From positions 1 through 44,430 of the forward strand of contig CACVAY010000010.1 in the NCBI GenBank assembly GCA_902727985.1: a DNA stretch of 44,430 nucleotides, written 5' to 3'. Below are positions 15,106 through 44,430 of this stretch, piece by piece (position 1 is the stretch's first letter; each line of letters begins with the position of its first letter). Position numbers and translations under genes: made by a program. This stretch comes from an uncultured Thiotrichaceae bacterium (lineage in GTDB: Bacteria; Pseudomonadota; Gammaproteobacteria; Thiotrichales; Thiotrichaceae). The notes beneath the pieces were generated by a model that worked only from the letters and a program-made list of their open reading frames with translations, did not search any database and had not been told where the DNA came from.

Positions 15106-15567
15106 GTACTCATTTTCACCTCTTTGCCACAAGCCGTTCTTGACACGGCAACGGCTTCCGATATCTACCGTGTAAGATGGCAGGTAGAACTGACGATCAA
15201 ACGGATGAAAAGCCTACTGAATGTCGATAAATTAAGAGCATTCAAAGGAGGTAAACTCGCCGAACTGTATCTTTACGGAAAGTTGCTCTATGCCGCCGTT
15301 GTTGAAAAAATAGCACACCGTCGATTTGCTAATGCAAACACAGGCATGACAAAGAATCGCACACTCACTCCGTGGCGGCTATGGCATTTAACGGATGACG
15401 CCATTCGTTCTGCCTTTGTTACTTGTTTTCCCTATCGAAAAGAATATCAAACTGAGGCTAAAAAAAGCATGACCGAGAGGCCCCGAAAACGAAAACTACA
15501 AACACTTCCCAAGCCTATGTTTGACTTAATTGACAGGTGTAGTAAATATCATCTTTGCCTTGTTTAG
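15106..15567 (+). mobile_element. 3' remnant of an IS4-family transposase
   Basis: The frame reads VLIFTSLP and runs to about residue 150. It contains the exact IS4-family C-terminal signature Y-x2-R-x3-E-x6-K (YRVRWQVELTIKRMK), holding the third catalytic acid Glu. It ends KYHLCLV before a TAG. The N-terminal two thirds, with the first two Asp residues, are absent, and no pair of terminal inverted repeats is visible. It is therefore a dead remnant. Its left edge coincides with the glycosyltransferase breakpoint at about 15105, pointing to a single rearrangement event. Confidence 0.85.
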
Positions 15568-15908: not shown

Positions 15909-18900
15909 CTATCGCAACTCCCGCCAACCGCGAAGACCATATTCAAATGTGTCGTTAATGATCAACTGTGCATTCGGTCCGGTCTGGTTCGTTGCTGTTT
16001 GTTCTGCCAAGCCGATAGCCATGAGTTCAGTGGTTGCTGGAAGATCTGTCAACTCCAGACTCTTTGCTGTACCGAAACCTAGGCTCAATATATTGCTAAG
16101 AGCATTTTTGTCCTTGAGTTGGTAAAACCGTTTAACCGGGTATTTACCATTATCGAGTCGGTAAAAATAATAAAAGGCTGTGGCATAGCAGGCTCCACCA
16201 GTTGGCTCCACGGTTACTGGCAGGATGATACTGTCAGCAACGACGGTTGCTTCGCCTGAAAGAATCACTCCATTCGGTAACGGCTGGATATCGCCATTGG
16301 TAACTGCGGTATAATTGCCATCGTCGTTCCATTGTCCCGCGCTTTCTTCAAAAGCAGTCCATTGAGGCTTCCAGCCGTTGTTAGCATTCCATACAAATAG
16401 GCTCAGGCGGTTACTAGTCTGTGCACGTAAATAGAGACGATTATTGACACTAGACACTGATGCACCGATATACAGAACGGGGCCAGATTGTAGCGATGCC
16501 ACTGAAGCACCATTCATGTCCGTTTGAATTTCGGATGCAGAACGGAGGTCGCCATCTGCGTTTAGCAACGAAGCGGAGTAAATACTTCCGCTGTTGCTGC
16601 CCAGAAATAGTGTACCTGCTGCTGGCGCATCTGCCTTGCTTAAATCCTTGCTAACAAATGGTACCGAAGAGGCGGTAAAACCGAGCGGAATTTGCAGCAC
16701 TTTAGTATCACTGGTTAAGCTGCGGATAAACAATTGTGAGTCACCAGTCTCTGAATTAGCGACAACATAAGCGGCATACAAAAGACCATCGCCATCAGCA
16801 AAATACGCGCGTTGACCGTTAGCGGGTGAAGTATCCAGCAGGCCACTGCTAGTCATGTCATGATCTACATCCCAGACCACCTTATCTAGGCCCGAAGTCG
16901 CTGACAACTTCAACACATATTGGCCAAGCCCTTGTTTGTAACTGCCGATGACATAAGTAGCGTAAGAGCCTTTGGTGTTCTTCAGATCCATTACCTCAAT
17001 CTTGCCCTGCATATAGTGTTGACTGATAAAGGTTTCATGATTGATAAGTTCTCTGACCAGTGAACGAGGCATCCATCCCCAACCAAGGTCACCGTTATAC
17101 TGGTTGAATGCATAGACAAAACCGTCATCACTGCTGACAATCACACGGGCTGGTTTCGAGGTTGAACGATCCGTCGAGCGCAGCGCTACAGTGCTGTTGT
17201 AAAAAGAACGGTAAGCCTTATCATTCAGATAGGCGAAGGTATTGATGTCATTCCCCAGCAAAGCCATGTTGGAATCGGGTGAAATAGGACCGAGCAGGGA
17301 ATCACTTTGGCGGCCGTTCAGATAGATGCCTCGGTTGAGGGAAGGATTGAAGGTGTAACCCTTGATAGTGCGAGCGGTGGGCAAGCCGTTTGTGGCAAAA
17401 GGATTATCATCATAATTTTGATTGCCACCTATTAATCGTAGCAGTCGAAGGTTGCCATCTTTGTTGGTGCTATACAGCCGGTTTTTCCGCTTAGAGACTG
17501 TCATTTTCTCGTCGCTATCCCAACTAGCGTTTGCCTCCAGTTCGCCACTTGCATCAACAGAATAAGCTCTTACATTACCTGCGAGCGCATCATCATCAAT
17601 CTGTGAAGTAGCAAGAAAGACCTTATCACCAGCTTTCAAACGAGGGGGAGCGACTATAGCAACATTGACTTCGTCAGAAAGGCCGTCACAGGTGGTGATG
17701 CCTAGGCACGCGCTGAACTCCGAGGTATTGCCCTCTTCAGCATGACTTGCTTCACGGTTGATGGCGGTAGCGGTCAATGTGCCACCGGATAGAGATGAAT
17801 AGGGAATTATGGTGGTAAAGTTGGCATCGCCGGAGGCATCGGTGGTGACCGATAATGTAGTAATATAGTCTTCCCCTTCGCCATAAGCGGCACTCTCAGC
17901 GGAGCCGGAACTGTTGGCATTACACACCTGGTTATCATATAACTCGATATCAAACGTGGTGTTAGGTAGAGAATTTAGTGTTCCACTCAGATCGACATTG
18001 GTGGCGGTCTGCAGGGCAGAAGACAGCACGGGAAAGTTCTGCAGGCCATTGGGATGGGTGGAAGGATCGCTATCATTGGTATCATTCACGGTGACTCCTT
18101 TACGATTAAGGTTATTCCCCTGACCAAGGTCAATACCCAGACCGTCATTCGCGAAAATCGTATTTTGCGACATCCATGCCTTCGAGTCATTATCGAAGAC
18201 CTCAATGCCACTGCTGCGGTTATGACGAATGGTATTGCCAATAATGCGCGCGTTGGCACCTTTTTGCACCAGAATACCGGCATAGCCGCCTGTGGTTTCT
18301 GCAGAGTTATATGCTATCAGATTCCCTTCATCCGCAGCCAAGCCACCAACAATATGTCCAGCACCACCTTCTAGGCGAATGCCCCAGAAGCCATTACCTA
18401 GGGGTGTCGTTCCATCAGACCCGACACCGATTTTGTTGCCCTGAATAGTGGTGTTGGTCATGTCATAAAACTCTAGGCCTGAGCCATTTTCCATGCCGGA
18501 GATCACGTTGTTGCGGATAATCCAGCCATCGTGCTGTTCGGCAATAATGCCATACCATTGATCGTTGCGATCTAAAAGACCGGTAGCATCAGTGCCGATA
18601 AAGTTACCCTCGACGAGTACATTATCCACCGTACCATAAAAACCTCTGATCTCTGCACCGTTATTAGCGATAACATTATTACGGATGATTTCTCCATCTG
18701 AAACGACTCTACTTGTATCGTCGGCGAAGCTGATGCCTGCGCCGTAATAGCCACGACCATTGCCCAGCGGTGTGCTGCCGTCAGCACCAATGCCAACAAA
18801 ATTACGGTCGATAATGACATTGTCAACCGTGCCTTGGAGGAGCACGCCACTCAGATAATTGGCGCCTATTACATTGATGCCTGCAGTGGTGCCGTCCCCT

Positions 18901-20426
18901 AAGGTAGCGCCATCCACATCCGACAAAAGTACACCATTTTCGCCATTTTGCCTTATTGTTAAGCCATTAGTGTTTATGCCGATATGGTTACAGTTGAGGT
19001 TAACCGATTTGGAGTCAGTAAAAGAGAGACCATTGCCATTAAAACCGCCTACGGATAGACCCTTTATAGTGATATTCGACATCGCGCCGACCGAGAGCCC
19101 GTTTGGTAAGCCAACAAGGGCAGAGCCATCAACATGGATCTTCAGATTACGACCACTGATTGCGCCTGAGCTGGACATACTAGTGCCGCAAGACGCACCT
19201 GGTTGGGTTATGCCATCAATACTCACGCCATCGTCAGTAATGGTAGGTAGGGGCGAGCCCGAGATGGCAATGGTATGTGGTCCTGCGCCAGGTATATTGA
19301 AACGTATGGTGTCTTTGTCAGGGTCTGAATTGGCACACTCAATGGCATCGCGTAAAGAGCCCGAGTCATTAGCGGCATTGCCTGTGTCTGCAATGGTAGT
19401 AACGGTTGTTGAACAACTAGATGCGCTAACATTAGTGACTGGACAGAAGGCAATACCACTCATGTTGAAGGAAAGGGCATTGCCAGAAATACCCGGGCCG
19501 GGATTGTCATTACGCATGGTGAATTCTACATTGCTGACCGATGTCGCATTAGACCATGTGTATCTCAAGCTGTTATCTGTTCCATTGTCAGCATTTGTGG
19601 GTCGGTAATCAGCTCTTACTGTTCCCGTAGTCATATTAGCACCGGGTGTCACTGTAAGTCCCGCCGTCGGGCCTTTAGTCAGGCTTATCCCTTCAATAAT
19701 TCCGTTTGGGTTATTCCCTCCATTTGTTTTATCCTGTAAGTCACCAATCGTCAAATCGACACCTTCTACGGCAGGATTAAAAACAACCTCAATGGCATGC
19801 TCGGCATTAATAGAACTGACATTAGCCGTGGAGGCAGCGCAGTAATCGCCTGTTATAGGTGGGCATTCAGATGGGTCATTGGCAATTCTGGGGCGTTCCC
19901 AGCGAAAATCTGCATCGCTAGTGCGCCAGTTCAGAGTGATATCATGCCCACTAGCGCCAACATTTGAGTAGGTTGTAGAGGGATCCCCTGCTGTCCAGGA
20001 TACTGAACTCCAGTCCAACATAATTGGGGGGGTGCCATTCGCACAGTTAAGGGGTGGAGGAGGAGTTATTGGGGCAGCGGCAGGACAACTTACCGTTCCA
20101 TTCAATGATGATCTGCTTCCATTGCTTGCGGTTTCTTGCATGCTGAATACTGCCGAGAAGCTCCCTGGGCTGAGTCTAGTGATGTTGATCTCAGGAACAT
20201 TTCCACTGCTATCAGCAGTTTCCATGATATTTTGTGTTGTACCGTTTTGCTCTAATGAAAGAGCAAGGGTGCTGCCTGGGTTGACATTGTTGAGCGTTAT
20301 TCGAATACCAGCGCTATCGCACGATGCACTCGCTGAGAGGGCGCTGGCAGATGAGACAAAACCAGCATACGTAACCGCAAAAATGAGTATATAATTTGTT
20401 TTCATTATTATTGTTTTAGCCTTCAT
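15909..20426 (-). CDS. PilY1-like giant pilus-associated protein with right-handed beta-helix head
   Basis: 1505 residues (or 1498 from the second ATG at 20405, MKTNYILIFAVTYAGF, which begins the cleaner signal peptide ending near SASA). Order: leader; a short beta domain; a Pro-rich linker PITPPPP near residue 120; a domain to about 330; a CSLREA-like segment SGSLRDAIECANSDPDKDTI; then a parallel beta-helix (about 400-780). The helix has recurrent NxIGxxxDGxTPLGNG turns and ends in an SEFSACLG-type module. The last 570 residues are a PilY1-type propeller with SSDDGFVYAFNQYNGDLGWG and a terminal RGWRELR. No VWA domain or MIDAS is visible. It is the last gene of the minus-strand minor pilin operon, 95 bases after a paralogue. 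Inference: an alternative T4P tip adhesin. Confidence 0.85.
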   Translation of the reverse strand: MKAKTIIMKTNYILIFAVTYAGFVSSASALSASASCDSAGIRITLNNVNPGSTLALSLEQNGTTQNIMETADSSGNVPEINITRLSPGSFSAVFSMQETASNGSRSSLNGTVSCPAAAPITPPPPLNCANGTPPIMLDWSSVSWTAGDPSTTYSNVGASGHDITLNWRTSDADFRWERPRIANDPSECPPITGDYCAASTANVSSINAEHAIEVVFNPAVEGVDLTIGDLQDKTNGGNNPNGIIEGISLTKGPTAGLTVTPGANMTTGTVRADYRPTNADNGTDNSLRYTWSNATSVSNVEFTMRNDNPGPGISGNALSFNMSGIAFCPVTNVSASSCSTTVTTIADTGNAANDSGSLRDAIECANSDPDKDTIRFNIPGAGPHTIAISGSPLPTITDDGVSIDGITQPGASCGTSMSSSGAISGRNLKIHVDGSALVGLPNGLSVGAMSNITIKGLSVGGFNGNGLSFTDSKSVNLNCNHIGINTNGLTIRQNGENGVLLSDVDGATLGDGTTAGINVIGANYLSGVLLQGTVDNVIIDRNFVGIGADGSTPLGNGRGYYGAGISFADDTSRVVSDGEIIRNNVIANNGAEIRGFYGTVDNVLVEGNFIGTDATGLLDRNDQWYGIIAEQHDGWIIRNNVISGMENGSGLEFYDMTNTTIQGNKIGVGSDGTTPLGNGFWGIRLEGGAGHIVGGLAADEGNLIAYNSAETTGGYAGILVQKGANARIIGNTIRHNRSSGIEVFDNDSKAWMSQNTIFANDGLGIDLGQGNNLNRKGVTVNDTNDSDPSTHPNGLQNFPVLSSALQTATNVDLSGTLNSLPNTTFDIELYDNQVCNANSSGSAESAAYGEGEDYITTLSVTTDASGDANFTTIIPYSSLSGGTLTATAINREASHAEEGNTSEFSACLGITTCDGLSDEVNVAIVAPPRLKAGDKVFLATSQIDDDALAGNVRAYSVDASGELEANASWDSDEKMTVSKRKNRLYSTNKDGNLRLLRLIGGNQNYDDNPFATNGLPTARTIKGYTFNPSLNRGIYLNGRQSDSLLGPISPDSNMALLGNDINTFAYLNDKAYRSFYNSTVALRSTDRSTSKPARVIVSSDDGFVYAFNQYNGDLGWGWMPRSLVRELINHETFISQHYMQGKIEVMDLKNTKGSYATYVIGSYKQGLGQYVLKLSATSGLDKVVWDVDHDMTSSGLLDTSPANGQRAYFADGDGLLYAAYVVANSETGDSQLFIRSLTSDTKVLQIPLGFTASSVPFVSKDLSKADAPAAGTLFLGSNSGSIYSASLLNADGDLRSASEIQTDMNGASVASLQSGPVLYIGASVSSVNNRLYLRAQTSNRLSLFVWNANNGWKPQWTAFEESAGQWNDDGNYTAVTNGDIQPLPNGVILSGEATVVADSIILPVTVEPTGGACYATAFYYFYRLDNGKYPVKRFYQLKDKNALSNILSLGFGTAKSLELTDLPATTELMAIGLAEQTATNQTGPNAQLIINDTFEYGLRGWRELR

Positions 20427-20444
20427 TATTATTGTTTTAGCCTT
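20403..20444. repeat. 21-bp tandem duplication spanning a start codon
   Basis: CATTATTATTGTTTTAGCCTT occurs twice in tandem (20403-20423 and 20424-20444). On the minus strand each copy ends in ATG, and the unit is seven codons, so the duplication gives two in-frame starts with the same upstream context. Confidence 0.95.
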
Positions 20445-20521
20445 TATGGTTGTTGTTTTATCTCTTAAGCTTCATCGTAAAGAACTTGCCATCATGGGAA
20501 GTCTTTGCAGCATCTTATTTT

Positions 20522-23500
20522 CTAACGAATCTCGCGCCAGCTTCGAATGCTGGCTGAGAAAGGGTCATTGATATGCATGCTTTTATTAATGCCCGTGGAG
20601 TTATTGGCTCCTTGTTCAGCAATTCCCAAGCCAGAAAGTTTCTCTTTGCCTGGCATGTTCGCTAACAGTAAAGACTTGGCATCGCCATAGCCCAGCGAGA
20701 CTTCTTTGGTAATCGCCGTACTAGTGGTTGCATCATAGAAGGTGCTATTTGGGAAATAGCCATCAGTCAACTTATAGAAATAGTAATAAGCAGTGCCGAA
20801 GCAGCTATTTCCCGCTGGTGGTAGTGATACCGGCAATACAATACTATCTGCTACGATAAAAGCGCTGTCCGTGATCGTGGCATTTCCAGGAAGTGAGGTA
20901 ATGCTGCTATCGGCGGCAGGTGCACTGCTACCAGCCAACCATTTACCTGAGCCTCCCGTATAACTAGTCCAGTTAGGGCTCCATGTTTGATTGGTGGAGT
21001 TAAAGATGAAGGTTGTTAATCGATCTTCTGATTGCACCCGCAGATAGTACGATTTTCTACTGTTTGAGGCAGAGGCACCAATGAAAGTTATGGCGGAAGC
21101 CACTGACTCCATTCTGACTGTATTGGTCAGTGTGACGATTGCCCCATCAATAGTGCCAATAGCGGTGCTTCCGATATCGCCGAGGATGTCATCGGCTGAT
21201 CGTAGGATACCTTTATCATCCAGTAGACTGGCTGCATAGAACTTACCTCTAGAGTCACCGAGATAAAGAATATTGGCATCTGGTGCATTCGTATTCTTGA
21301 AGTCTCGGGTAATGAAAGGTGTTGCGGTGGCTTCATAGGAAAGCAATATCTCACGTGCATCCGTGGTATCCAGGATATTGCGAATATGCAGGGTAGAATT
21401 ACCGGAAATATCGGTAATGATGTAAATCATATAGACCGTGCCCGTACCATCAGAAAAGTAAGCGCGCTGTCCGAGGTTTGGAGCGCTATTTGAAAGCTGG
21501 TTTTGTGACTTATGGTCAATATCCCACACAATGCTTTCCAGCGATCCTGTATCACTGAGTTTAAGTACAAACTGCCCTAAACCCGAGCGGTAACTCCCGA
21601 TGACGTAACTGGCAAAACTCCCATTAGCATCAGGTAAATCTATTACATCCAACTTGCCTTTCATGAAATGACTGCTCGCAAAGTTTGAATAATCGCTTAG
21701 CTCTGCGATCAGAGAACGTGGCATCCAGCCCCATGCCAGCTCCCCATCCCGTTGACGGAAAGAATAAAGAAAACCGTCATCGCTGGTGACTAAAACCTGC
21801 TTAGGGTTATTATCACCATCGTCTTTACCCGAACGTCTGGACACGATGCGGTCATGGTAATCACGATACGTTGCACTATCCAGATAGCGCTCTATATCAA
21901 TATCATTACCGATAAGTGCTAGGCTGGCTTCTGGTGAAATTTGCCCAAGGAAAGAATCCTCCCTACGCGTTCCTAGATACTGATTGGTATCCCCCAAAGA
22001 TGGCTCCATCGTATAGTTTTTGATAGTTGCCACAGAAGGTAGACCAATATAATTAAAGGCAAGGTCATCAAGGTTCATGAACAACATCTTGCTGCCATCC
22101 GTCGACGTGGAATAAAGACGTTCCTCTCGTTCCTTCACGATCATTGTGCCATTGGCATCCCATACCTTAGTGTAGGGTAGGGCATCTGCATCCAAGGTAT
22201 ATGCCGTTAAATGGCCTTCCGAAGGAGAGAGAGTATTAGTTGCTAAAAAGATCTTTTCTCCCTCTCTCAATTGAGAAATAGGTGAGATTCCCGCGTTCAC
22301 ATCACCAGAGAAGCCCGAACAGGAAGGCGCTGCCTCAATGGTTAGCGTATAATCTTCTACTTCCCCATTATTGGCGCCACCATTCGGTGTCAAGGTCGTA
22401 TCCGTACTCAAACGGAAGCGGGCAAAGGTGATACCTTCAGTTAAACCATTTAGATTGCCCCAGACAAGATCAGATGCTGGAGCCGTCGCGCCATCCGGAA
22501 CGAAAGTATTCGTTGCTTCGCCTGGATCTAGAAAATCCCCATCACGGTTCAAGTCGATATAGGCATAAAGAATAGCGGTGGTTCCTGTGACATTACGGAG
22601 CGTGATATTACTTGCAGGAATACTGTAAGCTGTCGCATTTACATATAAAGAGGGGAATGCAGAAATACCATCTTCATCATTAAACTGATCATTATTATCT
22701 CCCAAAGCATCACTAGATGCATGGCCATCGGTATCCGTATCAGGAGCGATACTACCCAGATTGATCAGGTTGGAAATAATATGTTTAGGACCAACGGAGT
22801 CGGCACTAGTGCTACTGTTCCCTGGAATATTATCCGTGCCATAAGTATCTGGTGCATCACCAAAATCATATTCAAAGTTTGAGATGGGAGCTCGAGAACA
22901 ACGTGCTGCGTCACCATAGGAAGGTACCATGACGGTTGAATACAGGTTGGCTTTTGGATCTGGGTTTGCTGGATCAGAGAGGTCTATTTGATAGACATTA
23001 TTACCATCATTGAAGTACATATTGCCTTGCATATCGAACCAGGTGGTATTGGGGTTGATACTCAAACGAAAACCGATATCACCGATTTCAGTGACCATCC
23101 CTGTTTGTACATTCGTTTTATAGAGGATGCCTTGGTTACCAAGCCCCCAGTCACGAACCCCGATAAAGTAGAGATGGTTATCGAAAGGGTGTAGTCCAAA
23201 GTCCGCGACATGCTCGTCGGCTATCAAATTACTATACTGTACGGGACTCAGGTCGATTTTACCTAGATAGGATAAATAAGTGGGAGAGAGCGGATTGGCA
23301 TCGACTTTATAGATTTCACTGCCTCCAAAGTTTTGTGAGGCAAGGTAATAGATACCATCTGGTGAGACATCGCCAACATGGAAGCCCTCAGCGGGTAAGC
23401 CTGGCACGGTGAAAGTTTCGACAATATAGTCACTGTCAATGCGCACTACTTTTTCATTACCTAAATCATAACCCCAGATATAACCATCTTTAAGATTATA

Positions 23501-24880
23501 ACCTGTGGCATTGATATTGGTCGGGTGAAAAGATAAGCCTTCATTGGCACTTTTAGAGTCCCCATTTGCCAAGTCGATAATATTGGCAAAGGTAGGTGAG
23601 TCAGCGGCATCACTGACAAATACATAAGAGTCCGCGTTGCAAGCAAAAGGCTGCGCAGCGGATGCTGTTAAATTGTAATCCTCAACCTCGCCATCTTGTA
23701 GATATCCACTTGCAGTACTACCGTTTAGAGCTGTATCGGTGGAGATACGAAAACGTGAATAAATGATTCCTTCTGCAATATTGGAAATAATGTTCCATTC
23801 TAATTGGTAAGTTGCTGTTCCAGAGTTTGCTGGTACATCAACCCAAGTGGCTTCTGAGGATTCAAAGAAACCATTGTTGTTGAAGTCAATCCAGCCATAA
23901 AGTTTTGCTGGTTTGCCAGAATAATTTGAGGCGCTGATATCCACTTTATATTCGGTGTATCCGTCGGCCAGAGCAGGAAAAGAATGAACTCCATCTTCGT
24001 CATCGTAGTCAGATTTTTCTTTGCTATCTATATCATCCCCATCGGCATTTGCAGAATAATTGGTATCTTTTTCAAAATCGGGTGTAGCCCCCGAACCAAT
24101 GGTAACTAATGGCGTAATCGTATGGAATGCATCCCCGTAAGAAATCGGAGCATCCCCATGATCATCTCCTAAGCTTAGGCTGCTCGCATTCTCTATATCC
24201 AAGCTTATAAAATAATGTGAGTTAAAAGCTTTTTTTGTTGCTAGTCTGATGTTGAACTTTGAGGTGTTAGTCCATGTGACTGAGGCTTTACACTCGGGTA
24301 TGGCTATTGAGGTGTTCGAGTTACAGCTCTGTTGATTTCCCGAGATAAGTCCGTTGTATTCAATGCCTATGCTACTAGTGAGTTGTTTGGTTGCATCGTA
24401 TTTTACCTTGCTCTCAGGGGTGTTGCGTATGACATTAACATGGTCTTTGAGATAAACACTATCAGGGTTATTAGTCCGCCAATGATCAAGGTCGCTAAAA
24501 GTAGCGATGAGATTATCGACGTTAATTGGGGTTGTTGTTCCCTTTTTAACAACGACAACTTCAATATCAGCGAAAACATCTTTAGGGTCAGATCCACCAG
24601 AGTCAAACCTAAACGCCATAGTGCCACTATCGTATTCAATACAACCAGTCGTTTTCATAAGTTCTTGGTCGAGGATTTTTACTAAAATATCAAGTTGATC
24701 TTCTTCATAGACTGCATTCGTTCCAAAACGATATGCAGAATCTTTTTGGCACATATTATTTCCAGCGTCTTCAGCTGAAAAATTGCCATCAAGGACTATG
24801 CTGATAGCATGTGCCTGAGGCAAAACAAGAAAATAACTAAGTACTGCGGTGAGTAGTATAGACAGCGATGAATTTTTCAT
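20522..24880 (-). CDS. PilY1-like giant pilus-associated protein with two GEVED domains
   Basis: 1452 residues with a signal peptide (LVLPQAHA). Residues about 26-235 form an N-terminal domain I do not recognise. The first GEVED-type domain is at about 240-410 (DDEDGVHSFPAL, then LYGWIDFNNNGFFESSEA, then DGEVEDYNL). A six-bladed-looking DUF6923-like segment is at about 410-680 (SYVFVSDAADSPTFANI, IDLSDPANPDP). The second GEVED copy is at about 685-860 (NDEDGISAFPSLY, AYIDLNRDGDFLDPGEA, NGEVEDYTL). The C-terminal PilY1 propeller carries TSDDGFLYSFRQRDGELAWG and WGWMPRSLIAEL and ends RSWREIR. No VWA domain is present. The propeller is clearly paralogous to that of the next gene, but the heads are unrelated. 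It directly follows pilX in the operon, so export and display with the minor pilins is the likeliest role. Confidence 0.87.
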   Translation of the reverse strand: MKNSSLSILLTAVLSYFLVLPQAHAISIVLDGNFSAEDAGNNMCQKDSAYRFGTNAVYEEDQLDILVKILDQELMKTTGCIEYDSGTMAFRFDSGGSDPKDVFADIEVVVVKKGTTTPINVDNLIATFSDLDHWRTNNPDSVYLKDHVNVIRNTPESKVKYDATKQLTSSIGIEYNGLISGNQQSCNSNTSIAIPECKASVTWTNTSKFNIRLATKKAFNSHYFISLDIENASSLSLGDDHGDAPISYGDAFHTITPLVTIGSGATPDFEKDTNYSANADGDDIDSKEKSDYDDEDGVHSFPALADGYTEYKVDISASNYSGKPAKLYGWIDFNNNGFFESSEATWVDVPANSGTATYQLEWNIISNIAEGIIYSRFRISTDTALNGSTASGYLQDGEVEDYNLTASAAQPFACNADSYVFVSDAADSPTFANIIDLANGDSKSANEGLSFHPTNINATGYNLKDGYIWGYDLGNEKVVRIDSDYIVETFTVPGLPAEGFHVGDVSPDGIYYLASQNFGGSEIYKVDANPLSPTYLSYLGKIDLSPVQYSNLIADEHVADFGLHPFDNHLYFIGVRDWGLGNQGILYKTNVQTGMVTEIGDIGFRLSINPNTTWFDMQGNMYFNDGNNVYQIDLSDPANPDPKANLYSTVMVPSYGDAARCSRAPISNFEYDFGDAPDTYGTDNIPGNSSTSADSVGPKHIISNLINLGSIAPDTDTDGHASSDALGDNNDQFNDEDGISAFPSLYVNATAYSIPASNITLRNVTGTTAILYAYIDLNRDGDFLDPGEATNTFVPDGATAPASDLVWGNLNGLTEGITFARFRLSTDTTLTPNGGANNGEVEDYTLTIEAAPSCSGFSGDVNAGISPISQLREGEKIFLATNTLSPSEGHLTAYTLDADALPYTKVWDANGTMIVKEREERLYSTSTDGSKMLFMNLDDLAFNYIGLPSVATIKNYTMEPSLGDTNQYLGTRREDSFLGQISPEASLALIGNDIDIERYLDSATYRDYHDRIVSRRSGKDDGDNNPKQVLVTSDDGFLYSFRQRDGELAWGWMPRSLIAELSDYSNFASSHFMKGKLDVIDLPDANGSFASYVIGSYRSGLGQFVLKLSDTGSLESIVWDIDHKSQNQLSNSAPNLGQRAYFSDGTGTVYMIYIITDISGNSTLHIRNILDTTDAREILLSYEATATPFITRDFKNTNAPDANILYLGDSRGKFYAASLLDDKGILRSADDILGDIGSTAIGTIDGAIVTLTNTVRMESVASAITFIGASASNSRKSYYLRVQSEDRLTTFIFNSTNQTWSPNWTSYTGGSGKWLAGSSAPAADSSITSLPGNATITDSAFIVADSIVLPVSLPPAGNSCFGTAYYYFYKLTDGYFPNSTFYDATTSTAITKEVSLGYGDAKSLLLANMPGKEKLSGLGIAEQGANNSTGINKSMHINDPFSASIRSWREIR

Positions 24881-24995
24881 GGCGTTGCTTCTTTTTGTTT
24901 TTTTCAGTAATACACTTTTTATTGTGGGGTGTGTTTACAGGCTAAAATAAAAATTGGGGAAAGTATTTAGGTCTGCCTGAGTGTTTATAAAGTTG

Positions 24996-25688
24996 TTAGT
25001 ACATCTTTCTAAAGCATCCACTTCGTGGGATGGATTTTACTTCAATAAGTACACTTGAATTCTCAGAACTTCCTGTTCCAGCTGCAATTATACTTACTGG
25101 GATACAGTAATAGTTTTCAGTCCCTTTTAGTAAAATAGGCTCATGAATACCTGTAGCAAATTGTGGGGCCTTTGCTATCTTCATGGGATTTTCCATTTCG
25201 TTGCTAGATAAAAATGGCACCGATGAAACGGTTAAAGAATTGGGTAGTGATTCGTTCGTGTCTGAGTTCTCCCATTCCCAATCCTTTGAGCTAGTGATAT
25301 TGGCCCAAGTCCCACTATTTTTACTACTCTTGGTTTTATTATCTTGTGTACAGGTTGTTGCTTCTGCATTGGTTCGTAAATCGAATACGCCACTTTCTGC
25401 ACAGTTGGATACGTATTTTTTAAAGTCCAATTGGTCATTTACTTTTTTCCATGCATGGTAAATGGCTGACTCAGCAGCTAGTTTTGCCTTCTGATGTTCT
25501 GTGGAGTTGGTGGACATTTTAAGTTCAAGCGTGGATGTTTTTGATGAGTTGATGCCAACTATTGTCAAAACTACAAGGAGTACAACGACTAAACCCATGA
25601 CAGCCACGCCATCTTGGTTATTGGGGTATGTATGTTTATTTCTCATGAGCGGTGACACATCCATTCCTTTATTATTTTTAAAATACAT
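24996..25688 (-). CDS. pilX: PilX-like minor pilin (operon 1)
   Basis: 230 residues from the ATG at 25688, chosen because AGGAG precedes it closely; an internal ATG at 25646 would give a shorter leader (MRNKHTYPNNQDG). A prepilin peptidase site after Gly in NNQDG is followed by VAVMGLVVVLLVVLTIVGIN and the PilX-type TSTLELKMSTNSTEHQKAKL, then AAESA. Mature position 5 is Gly, not Glu, unlike the other pilins of the operon; this parallels GspK-type tip subunits. It is predicted to be part of the tip complex that primes T4P assembly and carries PilY1. It is flanked by pilW (25 bases) and the GEVED PilY1-like gene. Confidence 0.85.
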   Translation of the reverse strand: MYFKNNKGMDVSPLMRNKHTYPNNQDGVAVMGLVVVLLVVLTIVGINSSKTSTLELKMSTNSTEHQKAKLAAESAIYHAWKKVNDQLDFKKYVSNCAESGVFDLRTNAEATTCTQDNKTKSSKNSGTWANITSSKDWEWENSDTNESLPNSLTVSSVPFLSSNEMENPMKIAKAPQFATGIHEPILLKGTENYYCIPVSIIAAGTGSSENSSVLIEVKSIPRSGCFRKMY

Positions 25689-25713
25689 CGGCTCCTATTG
25701 TAGAGCTTGATGG

Positions 25714-26772
25714 TCATAGGTTTTTTAATGCTACATAGGTGTTAAAAACACGCCGAATACGTTTATCTGCGCCTGATGCGGGTATTGTATCTTTTTCAAA
25801 GGTAAAAGCATCTGCATCAAAGCTGTATGAGTTGTTTTCAGGTGTTATGTTGGCATTGCTACTGGACAATAGCAGACTAATACCAATGCTTTTAACGTTA
25901 GGCCATTGGCTATTAGATTCGATGCTGGCTGCTGTTTCGTAGCTATTGATTGCATCATCACCGCTGGTATCCACGCCGTAGCTGATTTGAAACCCTTCCA
26001 CATTAGCGATGATTTCTTTTTCATTCATTGCTGCGGTTTCACCATCTGCGGTAACCAGTTTTGCTTCGTAAAGAGCAGGGCGACCATTATTTCCGCTTTT
26101 CATGTAATACATAATGGACTCAAGCTTCCCCACAACGGCGTTTGTTGAATAGGAGTTATCTAAAGCTTTTGAGTTCCCAGGACTGGTGGTGGCTCCTGAG
26201 GAAAGAGTAACGGCGGTTTGGCCTGCAACTGTGGTGGTATCCGCTGAGTCAATCTGAAAGATAGATGCTTGCTCATGGTCGGCAACGACTAGTATGTCTG
26301 AGATAGTATAGTTTGTTGTTGCTGCAACAATGAGCTCATCACTTGCGACATTGCTTTCAAGATCAACCGGGTCAACCATGGTTTTTACCAAAATGACATC
26401 ATTATCTGCGTAAAATCCAGTGATGCCAGCGATGGTAGTGGTTGCAGAAACATTATCATAACCCTTGACCGGTTGAGCAATGTTCCACATTTCACTGGTT
26501 GGAGTATTAAGAGCACTTTCAACGCCATCGGAGTAACTTGAGTAAAAGCCTGAGTATCCAGAACCCTGAATGCGTGAAGTGAGACGGTTCAAGATAAAAC
26601 GCCCATTCTTTTGTGCTTCACTCATTGCTTCTTGAAGTTGATAGGTGGTTTTGTTGGAACTGTATACTTTGATTGCTCCAGCCATAACAAAAACCCCAAT
26701 AAGAGAAGCGACTAGGAGTTCTATCAGGCTGAACCCTCGGTGTTGATTAGAATGTTTAGCGAATTTGCTCAT
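25714..26772 (-). CDS. pilW: PilW-like minor pilin (operon 1)
   Basis: 352 residues with a type IV prepilin leader HSNQHRG and the N-terminal helix FSLIELLVASLIGVFVMAGA, with Glu5 present. The following SNKTTYQLQEAMSEAQKNGR, then FILNRLTSRIQGSGY, is the usual PilW pattern. The C-terminal part ends IRRVFNTYVALKNL, matching PilW ends. It overlaps pilV by 4 bases (ATGA), indicating translational coupling. Its role is a minor pilin of the initiation/tip complex at the inner membrane and pilus tip. Confidence 0.9.
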   Translation of the reverse strand: MSKFAKHSNQHRGFSLIELLVASLIGVFVMAGAIKVYSSNKTTYQLQEAMSEAQKNGRFILNRLTSRIQGSGYSGFYSSYSDGVESALNTPTSEMWNIAQPVKGYDNVSATTTIAGITGFYADNDVILVKTMVDPVDLESNVASDELIVAATTNYTISDILVVADHEQASIFQIDSADTTTVAGQTAVTLSSGATTSPGNSKALDNSYSTNAVVGKLESIMYYMKSGNNGRPALYEAKLVTADGETAAMNEKEIIANVEGFQISYGVDTSGDDAINSYETAASIESNSQWPNVKSIGISLLLSSSNANITPENNSYSFDADAFTFEKDTIPASGADKRIRRVFNTYVALKNL

Positions 26773-27281
26773 AGTTGCACCGATACAGTTTGTATGAGGG
26801 TTGCTCCATTCATGCTGCTAACACTTTTCTTACGATCAGCATTCTGGAATCTGATCCGGAGAGCACACATGCCTTCTGTATCGCAGGCGATACCTGCACT
26901 AGAATTGGGGAGTGAAGCTTCTAGATTTTTCAGCCAATAATAGGTTTTTTGGGTGGCAATGCTGTCTGTGGATGAGGGCGTTGCTGTCATATCCGCAAAA
27001 CTAACAAGGGTCGTTCCATTGCCGCTTGGTAAGTTATAGTTGCCCGCTTTAGCCGCTGAACTATCAGCTCGCAGTAAATCGACCATTTGTTGTAATGAAC
27101 TCATGGCTTGTGTGTGTGTGTAAGAGACCGATGCTGTATTAACGCTGTTTATTTGTAAGCTGGCAATGCCTAACATGCCAATGGAGGCAACGAGTGTTGC
27201 CACTAAAACTTCGACGATATTAAATCCACGCTGTGAAGAATAAGACGCTAGTGATGACGTGTTGGGTTGAACTATGGGCAT
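26769..27281 (-). CDS. pilV: PilV-like minor pilin (operon 1)
   Basis: 170 residues. The leader ends SSQRG and the mature N-terminus is FNIVEVLVATLVASIGMLGI, with Glu5. The downstream ASLQINSVNTASVSYTHTQA, then MSSLQQMVDLLRA, is characteristic of PilV (T2SS GspI relative), as is the late C-R-I-R-F strand. It overlaps the upstream fimU-like gene by 10 bases and pilW by 4 bases, so these three are tightly coupled. Confidence 0.9.
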   Translation of the reverse strand: MPIVQPNTSSLASYSSQRGFNIVEVLVATLVASIGMLGIASLQINSVNTASVSYTHTQAMSSLQQMVDLLRADSSAAKAGNYNLPSGNGTTLVSFADMTATPSSTDSIATQKTYYWLKNLEASLPNSSAGIACDTEGMCALRIRFQNADRKKSVSSMNGATLIQTVSVQL

Positions 27282-27817
27282 GAGCTAGCTCCTTCGGTGA
27301 CGATAATATTACCTGAGAGTGAAATGTTGAGAGTTCTTGCTGCCGAGACATCATTATCAGGGGGGCAAATGCGAAAACTGCTATCGGCTTCATTTCCATT
27401 CGAAGAAACAGGAACGCCCATTGCATTAAAGCTGATCCATTTTTTATAAGTATTATCAGTAGCCTTTAATGTATAGCCAGAATGCGAAAATGTATGAGTC
27501 GAAATGAGTTCTTCTGTAGTTTCTTTGACTCCATTGCTATTGGTATCTTCAAAAACATCCCAACCATTTTGCCATTCTCTTGTATCTCTAGCTTTAGGAA
27601 GAATCGTTACTGTTGAGTTGCGTTTTATGGCTTCACTTTGAGCAAGGTACATTGCTGTTCGAAAATCAGAGACGAAAGTAATGGTTTTGTTCTTTTCAAT
27701 GATTGTCATGAAAGAGGGCGTAGCCATTCCGCCCAGAATGGCTACGATTGCTACTGTGATGAGTAATTCGGTAAGGGTGAAACCTTTACCCAACAATATT
27801 TTATTTATCTTTATCAT
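27272..27817 (-). CDS. fimU: FimU/FimT-like GspH-family minor pilin (operon 1, first gene)
   Basis: 181 residues. The short leader ends LLGKG and the mature helix is FTLTELLITVAIVAILGGMA, with Glu5, then TPSFMTIIEKNKTITFVSDF, then RTAMYLAQSEAIKRN. This is the standard GspH/FimT domain. The C-terminus has the paired cysteines (FRICPPDN and EGASSCP) often seen in FimU. It is first in the minus-strand operon, so its promoter should lie in 27818-27900. FimT versus FimU cannot be separated on sequence alone; the pilV-pilW-pilX order favours FimU. Confidence 0.87.
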   Translation of the reverse strand: MIKINKILLGKGFTLTELLITVAIVAILGGMATPSFMTIIEKNKTITFVSDFRTAMYLAQSEAIKRNSTVTILPKARDTREWQNGWDVFEDTNSNGVKETTEELISTHTFSHSGYTLKATDNTYKKWISFNAMGVPVSSNGNEADSSFRICPPDNDVSAARTLNISLSGNIIVTEGASSCP

Positions 27818-31721: not shown

Positions 31722-32015
31722 TTAGCCGTTAGCGACATCTTTTTTATCTGTTAGGTGTTCTTGCATGTATTCACGTAAAGCATGATTAATATTGCTTTGG
31801 TACTTACCACCTTGAGACTTAAACCATGCCACAACATCAGAGTCCAGTCTGATTGTTACAGGTTGTTTTGTTGGTTTGTAGAAAGGATTGCTAACGGCTT
31901 TTTCAAAGAACTCATCCGTCAATGGTGGAATATCGCTAAAATCAATATCTTCATCTGACATATTTGCCAGCGCTTCAAGGTTCTTCATTTGTTTATTTGT
32001 AAGTTTCTGATTCAT
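31722..32015 (-). CDS. brnA: BrnA-type antitoxin (ribbon-helix-helix)
   Basis: 97 residues from the ATG at 32015, chosen because AAGGA lies just upstream and the longer frame to 32105 only shadows brnT. The acidic N-terminal half (MSDEDIDFSDIPPLTDEFFE) can mask the toxin. The C-terminal half PVTIRLDSDVVAWFKSQGG, then KYQSNINHALREYM, is the BrnA ribbon-helix-helix DNA-binding segment. It overlaps brnT by 23 bases. Family knowledge: BrnA neutralises BrnT and represses the shared promoter. Confidence 0.92.
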   Translation of the reverse strand: MNQKLTNKQMKNLEALANMSDEDIDFSDIPPLTDEFFEKAVSNPFYKPTKQPVTIRLDSDVVAWFKSQGGKYQSNINHALREYMQEHLTDKKDVANG

Positions 32016-32274
32016 AATTCCTTCTTTCTTTTTTATCAGCCTTTCTCGCCGACATAATACGGATAACCTCATTATCGCTATCATCATAATTAAGGGTATG
32101 AGCAATTAGAACAACCATTATTCCGATGGTTTGCCAGCGTTCCTCTCCATTCTCTATTCTGTCTTGTGTGAATAGCGCATCAGGATCATAAAAAACAAGG
32201 CTTGCGGTATCAACATCAATATTATGTTTGTGAATATTTGAGAGGTTTTTGTCCTCATCCCATGTAAAGATCAT
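31993..32274 (-). CDS. brnT: BrnT-type toxin ribonuclease
   Basis: 93 residues. The pattern MIFTWDEDKNLSNIHKHNID, then ASLVFYDPDAL, then NGEERWQTIG and EVIRIMSARKADKKERRNYE, is the complete BrnT family (RelE-like fold RNase) signature. These segments include the N-terminal WDE-K-NxxKH and the catalytic-region R-I-x-SARKA motifs. No truncation is seen, so the module is likely functional. It is first in the operon, followed by overlapping brnA, the usual toxin-antitoxin order for this family. A palindrome sits just upstream of its start. Confidence 0.94.
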   Translation of the reverse strand: MIFTWDEDKNLSNIHKHNIDVDTASLVFYDPDALFTQDRIENGEERWQTIGIMVVLIAHTLNYDDSDNEVIRIMSARKADKKERRNYESETYK

Positions 32275-41220: not shown

Positions 41221-41772
41221 ATGTTGAAACAGAAAATACAGGGCTTCTCTCTCGTTGAAGTCATGATCACTCTCTCTATTATGGCCATAATGATTGGGTT
41301 TTCTGTGCCTGCGTTGAAAAACATGATTGAGTCAAATCGTTTGCAAAGTGCAGTGGATGATTTTCAGTTCGCATTAGTATACTCAAGGCTCAACGCCATA
41401 TCATTGCAAATGGATGTTGCGATATGCCCTAAAAAACCAGCACAAATAGCGTGTGAAGATGATGTAAACGAGCAAGACTATGCCGAAGGATGGTTGGTAT
41501 TTAGTGACTGTGATGATGATGGTGTTTTTGATAATAGCAATGTTTGTGATCGCGACCTAGATGGCAGCAACGATGCCAGTGAATTGCTCAAAATCTATGA
41601 TCTCAATAAGAAAAATGCATTGAGCATTACGGGGGATGTCAAGTATAAAGATCTCATCACGTATCAACTCACAGGAAGAACAACAGAAGGAGCTGGTGAG
41701 TTTACTTTTAGTACAAATTTAGCAACATCCAAACTGAAAGTGTCGAGAATAGGGATGATCATGCGGGAATAA
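41221..41772 (+). CDS. fimU: FimU/FimT-like GspH-family minor pilin (operon 2, first gene)
   Basis: 183 residues. The leader MLKQKIQG is cleaved before FSLVEVMITLSIMAIMIGFS, with Glu5. VPALKNMIESNRLQSAVDDF, then QFALVYSRLNAISL, is the GspH/FimT domain. The mature part has four or more Cys (AICPKKPAQIACED, CDDDG, NVCDRD) and an Asp-rich loop CDDDGVFDNSNVCDRDLDGS, calcium-binding in appearance. It is divergent in sequence from the operon 1 copy, although the gene order is the same. Confidence 0.88.
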   Translation: MLKQKIQGFSLVEVMITLSIMAIMIGFSVPALKNMIESNRLQSAVDDFQFALVYSRLNAISLQMDVAICPKKPAQIACEDDVNEQDYAEGWLVFSDCDDDGVFDNSNVCDRDLDGSNDASELLKIYDLNKKNALSITGDVKYKDLITYQLTGRTTEGAGEFTFSTNLATSKLKVSRIGMIMRE

Positions 41773-41839
41773 ATGCATCAGAGCTATTCCATTGAATCGT
41801 CGAAAATAATAAAAAAGGTATGGCGGTAGGCATCAAAAA

Positions 41840-42391
41840 ATGCATAACAATAAGAATACAAATCTAGGATTTAACCTTGTTGAAGTACTCGTAGTGAGTT
41901 TGATCATTGCGGGGAGTTTCATTGCGTTAGCGGGTTCACAGCTTAATAATATCCGCTCCACTCAGAATGCTTTCTACCAGTCACAAGCTGGTGCCATTTC
42001 ATATGGCTTACTTGAAAAAATTCGTATGAACAGAGGAGTAATCGCAAGCTATCTCACAGACTCTTCAAGCTATACGTGTCCGACATCTCCTCCTGATCCC
42101 TTTTGTTATGTCTCTACTGTTGTATCTGAGCAATGCTCGGCAGCAGAATTAGCCGCTAGCGAAATTTATGTATCAATCTGTGGTATCAGTAACTCAGGGT
42201 TGATTTCTGAAGGGGTTCAGCAGGTATTGCCTAATGGGGCACTTGATGTCCAATGTGTAGCCAGCGATGGTACATATGGAACAGATTGTTCGGAAAACCA
42301 TGTGGTGATTACGGTTCGTTGGAATGATCAGGCGCTCTTAAAATCATCGGCTTCCGCTAGTCGATCGTTAGAATTATTTGGGGCTCTGTAA
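41840..42391 (+). CDS. pilV: PilV-like minor pilin (operon 2)
   Basis: 183 residues. The leader NNKNTNLG precedes FNLVEVLVVSLIIAGSFIAL, with Glu5, and a PilV-like continuation AGSQLNNIRSTQNAFYQSQA, then GLLEKIRMNRG. Cys residues occur in SYTCPTSPPDPFCYV and EQCSAAEL, suggesting disulfides. The stop overlaps the pilW start by one base (TAATG). Identity to operon 1 PilV is confined mostly to the N-terminal helix. Confidence 0.87.
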   Translation: MHNNKNTNLGFNLVEVLVVSLIIAGSFIALAGSQLNNIRSTQNAFYQSQAGAISYGLLEKIRMNRGVIASYLTDSSSYTCPTSPPDPFCYVSTVVSEQCSAAELAASEIYVSICGISNSGLISEGVQQVLPNGALDVQCVASDGTYGTDCSENHVVITVRWNDQALLKSSASASRSLELFGAL

Positions 42392-43227
42392 TGAAAGGCA
42401 AATATAGGCAATTAGCTGGTTTTACTCTTGTCGAATTAATCGTGGTAATGGTGATTGGTTTATTCTTGATGGCGGGTATGTTCAGTTTTTTTCAAAGTAA
42501 TAAGCAGGCTAATGCCAGTCGGCACCAATTGGCTCAAATCGAAGATCTTGGGCGTAATGCTATCCATGAGTTGACACGGACTATTCAGCATGCGGGTTAT
42601 CGTGGTGAGCATGATGTCGTTTCCACCTCGAATTTTATTACGGGTTCTGTCACGGGGCAGAGCTGTTCTGGTAATGGTGTGGCAACAACGCAGACCAATG
42701 TGGCCGATGCAAGCTTATTAGGAAGTACGGTCGATGGTTTACTGGCAGCAAATGACCAAGTGGGGGTCGTCTATTCGGGAGATAGTAGTTTAAATCAGGA
42801 TTGTTCTGGTTTGAGCTTACCCAGTGATTGTGAGGTTGGTTCGGCCTTGGAAAGTGGAGCAGCACAGATTTACAGTACGTTTAGTATTGGTGATGTCTCA
42901 GGCGTCCCACATTTACAATGCGCTAGTTCTCTTTCGAGCGAGCGTATTGCCTTGGTGCCAGGGATTGAAAGAATACAATTTAACTATGGTGTTGATGCTG
43001 ATAACGATGGTGTTGTTGATCAATACCAAACAGCCTCTCAGGTTACTCAATGGGGGAGTGTATTGTCTGTCCGAGTGGCGTTACTAGCCCGCTCGCTGAA
43101 GCCTACCAAAAAGGTCGCAGAAGCAATGAGCTTTATGCTGCTGGATAACAAGATTGATGTGGCTGCTGATAGGTATCAGCGCGCAGTTTTTCAAACGACC
43201 ATTCGTTTACAGAATGTGAATATATGA
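42391..43227 (+). CDS. pilW: PilW-like minor pilin (operon 2)
   Basis: 278 residues. The leader ends QLAG and is followed by FTLVELIVVMVIGLFLMAGM, with Glu5, and then FFQSNKQANASRHQLAQIED, then ARTIQHAGYRG-type PilW sequence. The C-terminal third has VPGIERIQFNYGVDADNDGV and IQRAVFQTTIRLQNVNI, as in PilW families. It is shorter than the operon 1 PilW (352). It is 9 bases upstream of pilX. Confidence 0.9.
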   Translation: MKGKYRQLAGFTLVELIVVMVIGLFLMAGMFSFFQSNKQANASRHQLAQIEDLGRNAIHELTRTIQHAGYRGEHDVVSTSNFITGSVTGQSCSGNGVATTQTNVADASLLGSTVDGLLAANDQVGVVYSGDSSLNQDCSGLSLPSDCEVGSALESGAAQIYSTFSIGDVSGVPHLQCASSLSSERIALVPGIERIQFNYGVDADNDGVVDQYQTASQVTQWGSVLSVRVALLARSLKPTKKVAEAMSFMLLDNKIDVAADRYQRAVFQTTIRLQNVNI

Positions 43228-43236
43228 GGAATACCT

Positions 43237-43752
43237 ATGTCTGAGGCAAGTGTTAAATCCTTAAGCTTCCACCAGTCAGGCGCGACTTTGCTTTGGGCGT
43301 TGGGGGTTTTACTGGTTATGAGTATTGTGACTATTTCTGCTTCTAGATCATCTAGCTTAAGCGTACGTATTGCGCATAATGGTGTACTACAAAAATCGGC
43401 TTACCAAGGTGCTGAGTCTGCTTTGACCAAAACGCTTGAACGCTCGAAAATGCTTATCACCTCAGATACAGGGACGGCGAATACAGACGGAAATAAAGTA
43501 AAAACATTCTCTGCTACTAGTCTTGGTAATTTATCGCTACAGGGAAGCATTGAGGCATTAGGAGCCTCCGATTGTCCGCAACTATCAACAGTTGCTATGA
43601 GCACGGAACTATCACGTGACAGTGGTGGTGTGACCTGTGCTGCATATCGTGTGACGGGTGGGGCAGTAGTAAATGGCACTGCGGTAAGAGATTCACATGT
43701 AGTCGGTGTGAAAATATTCATACCATCAAAAGAAGTTGTTGAATTCAAATAA
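43237..43752 (+). CDS. pilX: PilX-like minor pilin (operon 2)
   Basis: 171 residues. The prepilin-type leader ends FHQSG and is followed by ATLLWALGVLLVMSIVTISA and a PilX-like continuation SLSVRIAHNGVLQKSAYQGA, then ESALTK. As in the operon 1 PilX, mature position 5 is not Glu (here Trp). It is shorter than the operon 1 PilX (230). The order pilW-pilX-pilY1 is the canonical T4P arrangement. Confidence 0.83.
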   Translation: MSEASVKSLSFHQSGATLLWALGVLLVMSIVTISASRSSSLSVRIAHNGVLQKSAYQGAESALTKTLERSKMLITSDTGTANTDGNKVKTFSATSLGNLSLQGSIEALGASDCPQLSTVAMSTELSRDSGGVTCAAYRVTGGAVVNGTAVRDSHVVGVKIFIPSKEVVEFK

Positions 43753-43834
43753 TTACAGCTCATAAGAATGACTCAAAATAGAAGAAAAATAACACTATAA
43801 ATCTGCGATATCCGCAGCATTCTGGGGAATGACC

Positions 43835-44430
43835 ATGAAATACCTATTGAAAACCTGTTTTCTCGCCATTTTAGGCATTACCGCGATAAATATGTCCCTC
43901 TTAGCAGATGATACGGAAGTTTTTGTAACAGAGCAGGCATCTATCCCTCCCAATCTGCTATTCGTTCTAGACAACTCTGCAAGTATGCAGACAGCAGTAC
44001 CTGGTGACACGCTGGGGAGAAATCGAATGGAGGTGTTACAAGCAACCTTCAAAGATATGTTGGACAATATGGATCCAGAAATTGAGGTTGGGGTTTCTCG
44101 ATATAGTGGTGGAGGCGCATCAACCCGTGGTATTTCGTTTCCCGTTAGTCCGCTCACTGATGATGCACCTACCATTCTAACAAGTAACCTGATCACCTCT
44201 GTAACATTACCTACAGACCTTACTGTAACTGATGATGATAATCATGATGCCATGTTCGACTTGGATGATGATCATCTGCCCAACCCTAGTCTGAGCGCTA
44301 TGACGGTCAAAGATTATCTGAAAGAAGTGGTCGATAGTTGGGTGCCATCAGGAGACACACCGATTGTTGGGCAAATGATGGAGGCAGTGCAGTATTTTAA
44401 GAGTTCATGGTCACTTTATGGCTACGGAGC
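43835..44430 (+). CDS. pilY1: PilY1 with von Willebrand factor A domain (partial, 3' end outside window)
   Basis: 198 codons are visible from the ATG at 43835, preceded by GGGG about 10 bases upstream. The signal peptide is CFLAILGITAINMSLLA. The VWA domain begins IPPNLLFVLDNSASM with a DxSxS MIDAS (DNSAS). A candidate MIDAS Thr lies in SGDTPIVGQMMEAVQYF. An Asp-rich stretch (DDDNHDAMFDLDDDH) lies between. It is the last visible gene of the second minor pilin operon and represents the canonical PilY1 head that the two operon 1 paralogues lack. The C-terminal propeller is outside the window. Confidence 0.93.
   Translation, partial: MKYLLKTCFLAILGITAINMSLLADDTEVFVTEQASIPPNLLFVLDNSASMQTAVPGDTLGRNRMEVLQATFKDMLDNMDPEIEVGVSRYSGGGASTRGISFPVSPLTDDAPTILTSNLITSVTLPTDLTVTDDDNHDAMFDLDDDHLPNPSLSAMTVKDYLKEVVDSWVPSGDTPIVGQMMEAVQYFKSSWSLYGYG

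Follow-up and report, generated by a model that had tools for sequence, protein, structure and literature searches.

Divergent PilY1-type proteins with unrelated heads in a minor pilin operon of an uncultured Thiotrichaceae bacterium: a candidate type IVa pilus tip system

A minor pilin operon with two large secreted proteins

The window, that is, the whole stretch of 44,430 nucleotides analysed here from an uncultured Thiotrichaceae bacterium, carries six minus-strand ORFs at positions 15909-27817, in the order fimU-pilV-pilW-pilX followed by two large secreted proteins, referred to here as Y_B and Y_A. This arrangement had been described in a sequence-only reading of the locus and was confirmed by ORF positions, Pfam and NCBIfam. 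The fimU-like minor pilin gene (27272..27817) matches GspH (PF12019, E=1.6e-16) and N_methyl and overlaps by 10 nt with pilV (26769..27281; TIGR02523, E=3.2e-18, above cutoff), which in turn overlaps by 4 nt with pilW (25714..26772; PF16074, E=1.4e-23). A gap of 25 nt separates pilW from pilX (24996..25688; PilX_N, E=1.8e-9), and gaps of 115 nt and 95 nt lie between pilX and Y_B and between Y_B and Y_A, respectively. Promoter and terminator scans gave counts close to the shuffled expectation. Just downstream of the 3' end of the operon, a transposase-like ORF was recognized by eye (15124-15567, plus strand), a possible trace of mobility, and two small minus-strand ORFs at 31722-32274 resemble, also by eye, a toxin-antitoxin pair of the BrnT/BrnA type.

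Y_B (20522..24880, minus strand, 1452 aa) and Y_A (15909..20426, minus strand, 1505 aa) both begin with what appears by eye to be a Sec-type signal peptide. The head of Y_B consists of an N-terminal module (24161..24805), which is 36% identical over ~250 aa to a protein of a congener (G004 C158; BLASTP E=2e-50), followed by a first GEVED domain (PF20009; 23669..23902), a DUF6923 repeat domain (PF21959, E=1.6e-17; 22898..23566) and a second GEVED domain (22340..22570), both GEVED copies being above cutoff. In Y_A the head contains a block with a right-handed beta-helix (17982..19250; PF13229 Beta_helix, E=1.6e-9). The heads of the two proteins fail to align with each other, while their C-terminal tails (20525..22324 in Y_B, 15912..17693 in Y_A) are 41% identical over ~600 aa (E=5e-148). 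The Pfam domains agree with the heads proposed earlier from sequence, and the motifs quoted for the two proteins, including the C-termini RGWRELR and RSWREIR, are correct; a CSLREA-like segment, also proposed, had no NCBIfam match at E<=1.

The propeller tails and their distribution

The tails had been called PilY1-type, which holds for their homology, although they belong to a divergent clade and not among ordinary PilY1s. The Pfam family PF05567 did not match Y_A, Y_B or six congener proteins at E<=1, a result that taken alone would speak against a PilY1 propeller, but which was overturned by profile-level tests. A profile built from 12 tails (A5) found PilY1 of P. aeruginosa (3HX6) as its sole strong PDB match (E=2.2e-10), with mostly single blades of designed or generic propellers at lower ranks. 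When compared by hhalign with a profile of 11 canonical PilY1 propellers, the divergent tails scored 98.3% (E=1.5e-14) in an alignment of 413 columns that extends through the SWRE motif at the C-terminus, against 0.5% or less for reversed and column-shuffled controls. The AlphaFold2 model of the propeller was modest (mean pLDDT 54), and its top PDB match in Foldseek was again 3hx6 (E=5.4e-9). A similarity due to chance or composition was rejected on the basis of the reversed and shuffled controls and of the lack of a match to the DUF6923-like repeats of the head, and PF05567 was rejected as the sole deciding test because it is insensitive: even the clade members in G264 and G136 match it only weakly and below cutoff (E about 5e-4). 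In the tail tree, divergent tails and canonical PilY1 are separated with a support of 100/100, and their SWRE-type C-terminal motif is common to some canonical copies. On these comparisons, the tails of Y_A and Y_B are a divergent, Pfam-invisible clade of the PilY1 superfamily.

An EF-hand-like DxDxDxxxD motif, common but not universal among PilY1s and hence not defining, was present in all seven canonical PilY1s examined and in none of the 12 divergent tails at the same blade. In the canonical copy on contig C62 of the same genome this blade is DMDRDGGIDRMYFGD, matching DNNSDGVADYAYAGD in 3HX6. PilY1 of M. xanthus binds calcium, and this binding is important for the formation of pili (PMC8833165). 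The divergent clade lost this motif and would be either calcium-independent or dependent on another Ca2+ site; as PilY1s studied so far require the motif to function, the tails might also have another role.

Whole-genome searches found the divergent tail in 6/6 genomes of the genus, in eight proteins, whereas 57 further genomes from the family gave no hit at E<=1e-8. Clear members of the clade occur in two further genera of the class sample (G264 and G136; G268), and a more distant relative, annotated PilY, lies in a minor pilin operon on a plasmid of Comamonas fluminis; together with the eight proteins of the genus, these supplied the 12 tails of profile A5. Two degenerate-pattern scans of genome contigs found no relatives, probably due to the patterns themselves, since profile searches did find some. 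The divergent gene is located directly 3' of pilX in the window, in three congeners (G001, G003 and G004), in G264 and G136 and on the Comamonas plasmid. Three of the eight proteins of the genus (G004 C158, G005 C48 and G002 C195) have no minor pilins in the stretch examined, which for G002 C195 is a contig of 5.9 kb, and most congeners have one divergent copy; some of these genomes are fragmented, so that assembly may account in part for genes that stand alone or in single copy. In G005 the divergent gene without minor pilins (L032 8606-11383, plus strand) lies beside an ORF that by eye resembles a prepilin peptidase (7410-8303, minus strand). The Comamonas plasmid (NZ_CP066782.1; operon at L037 7377-13797) is mobilizable, and T4P tip complexes may thus move by plasmid.

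The minor pilins have a matching history. In each of the PilV, PilW and PilX trees, the divergent operons of the genus form one clade (100/99), which stands apart from the PilV, PilW and PilX of canonical operons. In these operons, tails and minor pilins were thus co-inherited, whereas the heads changed. Another explanation is that the divergent tails no longer dock on pili and the proteins are released or outer-membrane-associated adhesins that retained a PilY1-derived propeller and an operon position. This would fit the loss of the Ca2+ motif in 12/12 tails, the three congener copies without nearby minor pilins and the fact that capping of a filament needs no second tip protein per operon; however, linkage to the operon is retained across genera and on the Comamonas plasmid, the minor pilin clade matches and the SWRE-type C-terminal motif persists, and we regard this explanation as improbable.

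Y_A and Y_B tails are not sisters in the tail tree of the genus (91/86), and with an identity of 41% between them a recent tandem duplication was rejected. Both could be parts of one heteromeric tip, with propellers stacked or with one propeller on each of two docking sites. Their position in one operon behind a single set of minor pilins agrees with this, and tails that are not sisters may indicate a pair long kept; nevertheless, published tip complexes contain one PilY1 (PMC13190605), most congeners have a single copy, and tandem pairs of VWA-type PilY1s occur in two other genomes (G013 and G029) without a known joint complex, all of which makes a heteromeric tip a poor candidate.

Composition and exchange of the heads

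The eight proteins of the genus combine N-terminal modules and adhesin domains in different ways, Y_A being the one with the beta-helix. The first N-module, carried by Y_B, is also found with GEVED in G004 C158. A second one is combined in G005 with SpaA_2 and in G001 with a segment resembling one in G004 C193 and with SdrD_B. A third is combined with SpaA_2 in G003, with a propeller-like segment and SpaA_2 in G004 C193, and with a segment without an assigned domain in G002. These combinations do not follow the tails. G003 and G005 have sister tails (65% identical, 100/99 in the tree) and unrelated N-modules, whereas the N-modules of G002 and G003 are 66% identical against 46% for their tails, and those of G001 and G005 are 54% identical against 41%. 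Some heads are more alike than their own tails and sister tails bear unlike heads, which together indicates that heads were exchanged.

Exchange seems to extend beyond the divergent clade. GEVED is also present in canonical PilY1s of G001 (PF05567, E=1.3e-61), where the gene adjoins its own minor pilins, and of G002 (E=2.3e-64), and the Y_B head aligns with the GEVED heads of both (E about 1e-22). This is not a class-wide feature, an option that was rejected, as GEVED and PilY1 were never on the same contig in 17 other GEVED-bearing genomes of the class sample, most of which have PilY1. The beta-helix block of Y_A recurs twice, at 54% identity, in a surface protein of 2763 aa encoded on contig C117 of the same genome, and a 708-aa protein of this genome has DUF6923 and GEVED; both are possible head donors, and the 2763-aa protein with its GEVED-bearing neighbours is a likely source pool for PilY1 heads. 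The two beta-helix blocks of the 2763-aa protein (G000 C117:31940-40231; L083, L084) are near-identical to each other; the protein also has two GEVED domains and is encoded near other GEVED-bearing giants. The structural model of the head was poor (mean pLDDT 47.8), Foldseek returned no match to it below E=1e-3, and as the only similarities were weak, generic beta-helix matches to tailspikes, lyases, an epimerase and the adhesin PfbA, no enzymatic function was assigned.

Previous work has described GEVED as a domain of CshA-type fibrillar adhesins, with domain shuffling as the stated driver of their diversity (PMC10952558). Y_B resembles these proteins in having GEVED beside other adhesin modules, but CshA-type fibrils are anchored to the cell wall, while in Y_B the C-terminal surface anchor is absent and the modules sit on a PilY1-type propeller encoded in a pilus operon. 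Our literature search found no paper joining PilY1 and GEVED. ComC of Acinetobacter (PMC10374093) is likewise a T4aP tip adhesin whose N-terminal half has diversified among members of one genus, but there the insertions are in a retained VWA, whereas here VWA is absent and the entire head differs.

The closest parallel is M. xanthus, which has three minor pilin clusters, with DUF4114 in PilY1.1 and PilY1.2 and VWA in PilY1.3; besides these two, no other conserved N-terminal domains of PilY1 have been identified, as stated in the same paper (PMC13190605). Three minor pilin/PilY1 clusters per genome, a conserved propeller, varied N-termini and non-VWA heads are common to both systems. In M. xanthus, however, each cluster has one PilY1 and the only heads described as identified are VWA and DUF4114, while here two genes are in tandem, their heads are fibrillar-adhesin and beta-helix modules, and exchange of heads between close relatives is visible. 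The modular tip system proposed for this locus stands as far as PilY1-homologous tails and exchanged heads are concerned, but the concept itself is already known, as variable N-termini in separate clusters were published for Myxococcus. New are the range of heads, their exchange among PilY1 clades and with surface adhesins, and a Pfam-invisible clade without the Ca2+ motif.

That published variation also raises the question of whether anything beyond it is present here: the heads may be spacers or stalks without specificity, with a propeller that binds and senses. Multiple PilY1s with different N-termini in separate minor pilin clusters are published for M. xanthus (PMC13190605), and in fibrillar adhesins GEVED, SdrD_B, SpaA and DUF11 frequently serve as stalk (PMC10952558). 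On the other hand, the heads include complete folded modules that giant surface proteins of this genome have as well, and their wholesale replacement between close relatives is more than the drift expected of a spacer, so that we find heads serving as spacers rather unlikely.

Canonical PilY1s of the same genome and the proposed tip system

A VWA N-terminal domain is found in about a third of published PilY1s and is not defining (PMC13190605). No VWA was detected by Pfam in the heads of the genus, and a profile of canonical VWA heads gave only noise (E=5.9). Weak matches to the same profile (E=2e-4 to 0.02, against at least 1.1 for shuffled controls) came from the clade's four members in other genera, with two pieces matching in the right order in three of the four. 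These weak matches, together with canonical PilY1s as outgroup, suggest that VWA-type heads are ancestral and were likely lost once before the radiation of the genus.

The earlier claim of a replaced VWA head holds insofar as VWA is absent from both heads, but at the level of the genome the two proteins supplement VWA-headed PilY1. A second complete minor pilin operon, absent from the sequence-only reading, lies 13 kb from the divergent one on the opposite strand (41221..44430, plus strand, continuing past the window end to 47023 on contig C10), with fimU (from 41221), pilV (41840), pilW (42391), pilX (43237) and a canonical, VWA-headed pilY1 (43829) coding for 1064 aa. A third minor pilin/PilY1 locus, also with a canonical PilY1, is on contig C62. 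The idea that the divergent operon replaced canonical PilY1 was thus rejected, since two canonical copies remain and every congener has at least one. Against these three minor pilin/PilY1 loci stand a single PilQ and four matches to the PilT family above cutoff, which suggests one machine with several possible tips.

Compared with the PilY1/PilC/ComC tip adhesins (PF05567, 3HX6), Y_A and Y_B have the homologous C-terminal propeller, the slot after fimU-pilV-pilW-pilX and secretion in common, but have no PF05567 match, no DxDxDxxxD motif and no VWA, and are in tandem with unrelated heads. We propose that the products of this operon form an alternative tip complex for type IVa pili, in which a conserved propeller carries exchangeable adhesin heads, and we put the probability of this reading at roughly two in three. 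The four dedicated minor pilins would bear either Y_B or Y_A as their tip protein, and the conserved PilY1-type propeller of each would dock on them, probably via PilX; in the modelled M. xanthus complex, PilY1 is at the top with its N-terminus at the extreme tip, and a beta-strand complementation between PilX and PilY1 is predicted (PMC13190605). The GEVED/DUF6923 array of Y_B and the right-handed beta-helix of Y_A would act as outward-facing adhesin modules with their own binding specificities and set what the pilus grips. Recombination would swap such heads from one PilY1 gene to another, and with the giant surface adhesins that these genomes encode. Tails and minor pilins that are co-inherited while heads are exchanged are what a model in which the propeller docks and the head binds predicts. 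A single T4aP machine could be fitted with several tips, from the divergent operon, from the VWA-PilY1 operon at 41 kb and from the C62 locus, and Y_A and Y_B may alternate or compete for use.

A fuller version, in which this is a combinatorial tip system of one genus with a generic PilY1 socket lacking the Ca2+ motif, fibrillar-adhesin modules traded among PilY1 clades and with giant surface proteins, and two tips per set of minor pilins, is offered tentatively, as a possibility about which we have more doubt than confidence; if true, a single pilus machine could change the target that it holds and pulls on. To the VWA and DUF4114 heads known for PilY1, these proteins add fibrillar-adhesin and beta-helix modules, and surveys based on Pfam overlook their clade. 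Near relatives whose propellers are similar but whose heads differ are natural head-swap experiments, and they open to direct test whether head or propeller determines the specificity of the pilus, and whether the propeller can do without its Ca2+ site.

Tandem PilY1 genes, in this case VWA-headed, follow pilV-pilW-pilX in a pair of genomes from a different genus of the family (L035 4096-11906, minus strand, with a pilE-like gene in the same locus, and L036 7335-15181, plus strand), a precedent for two PilY1s per operon.
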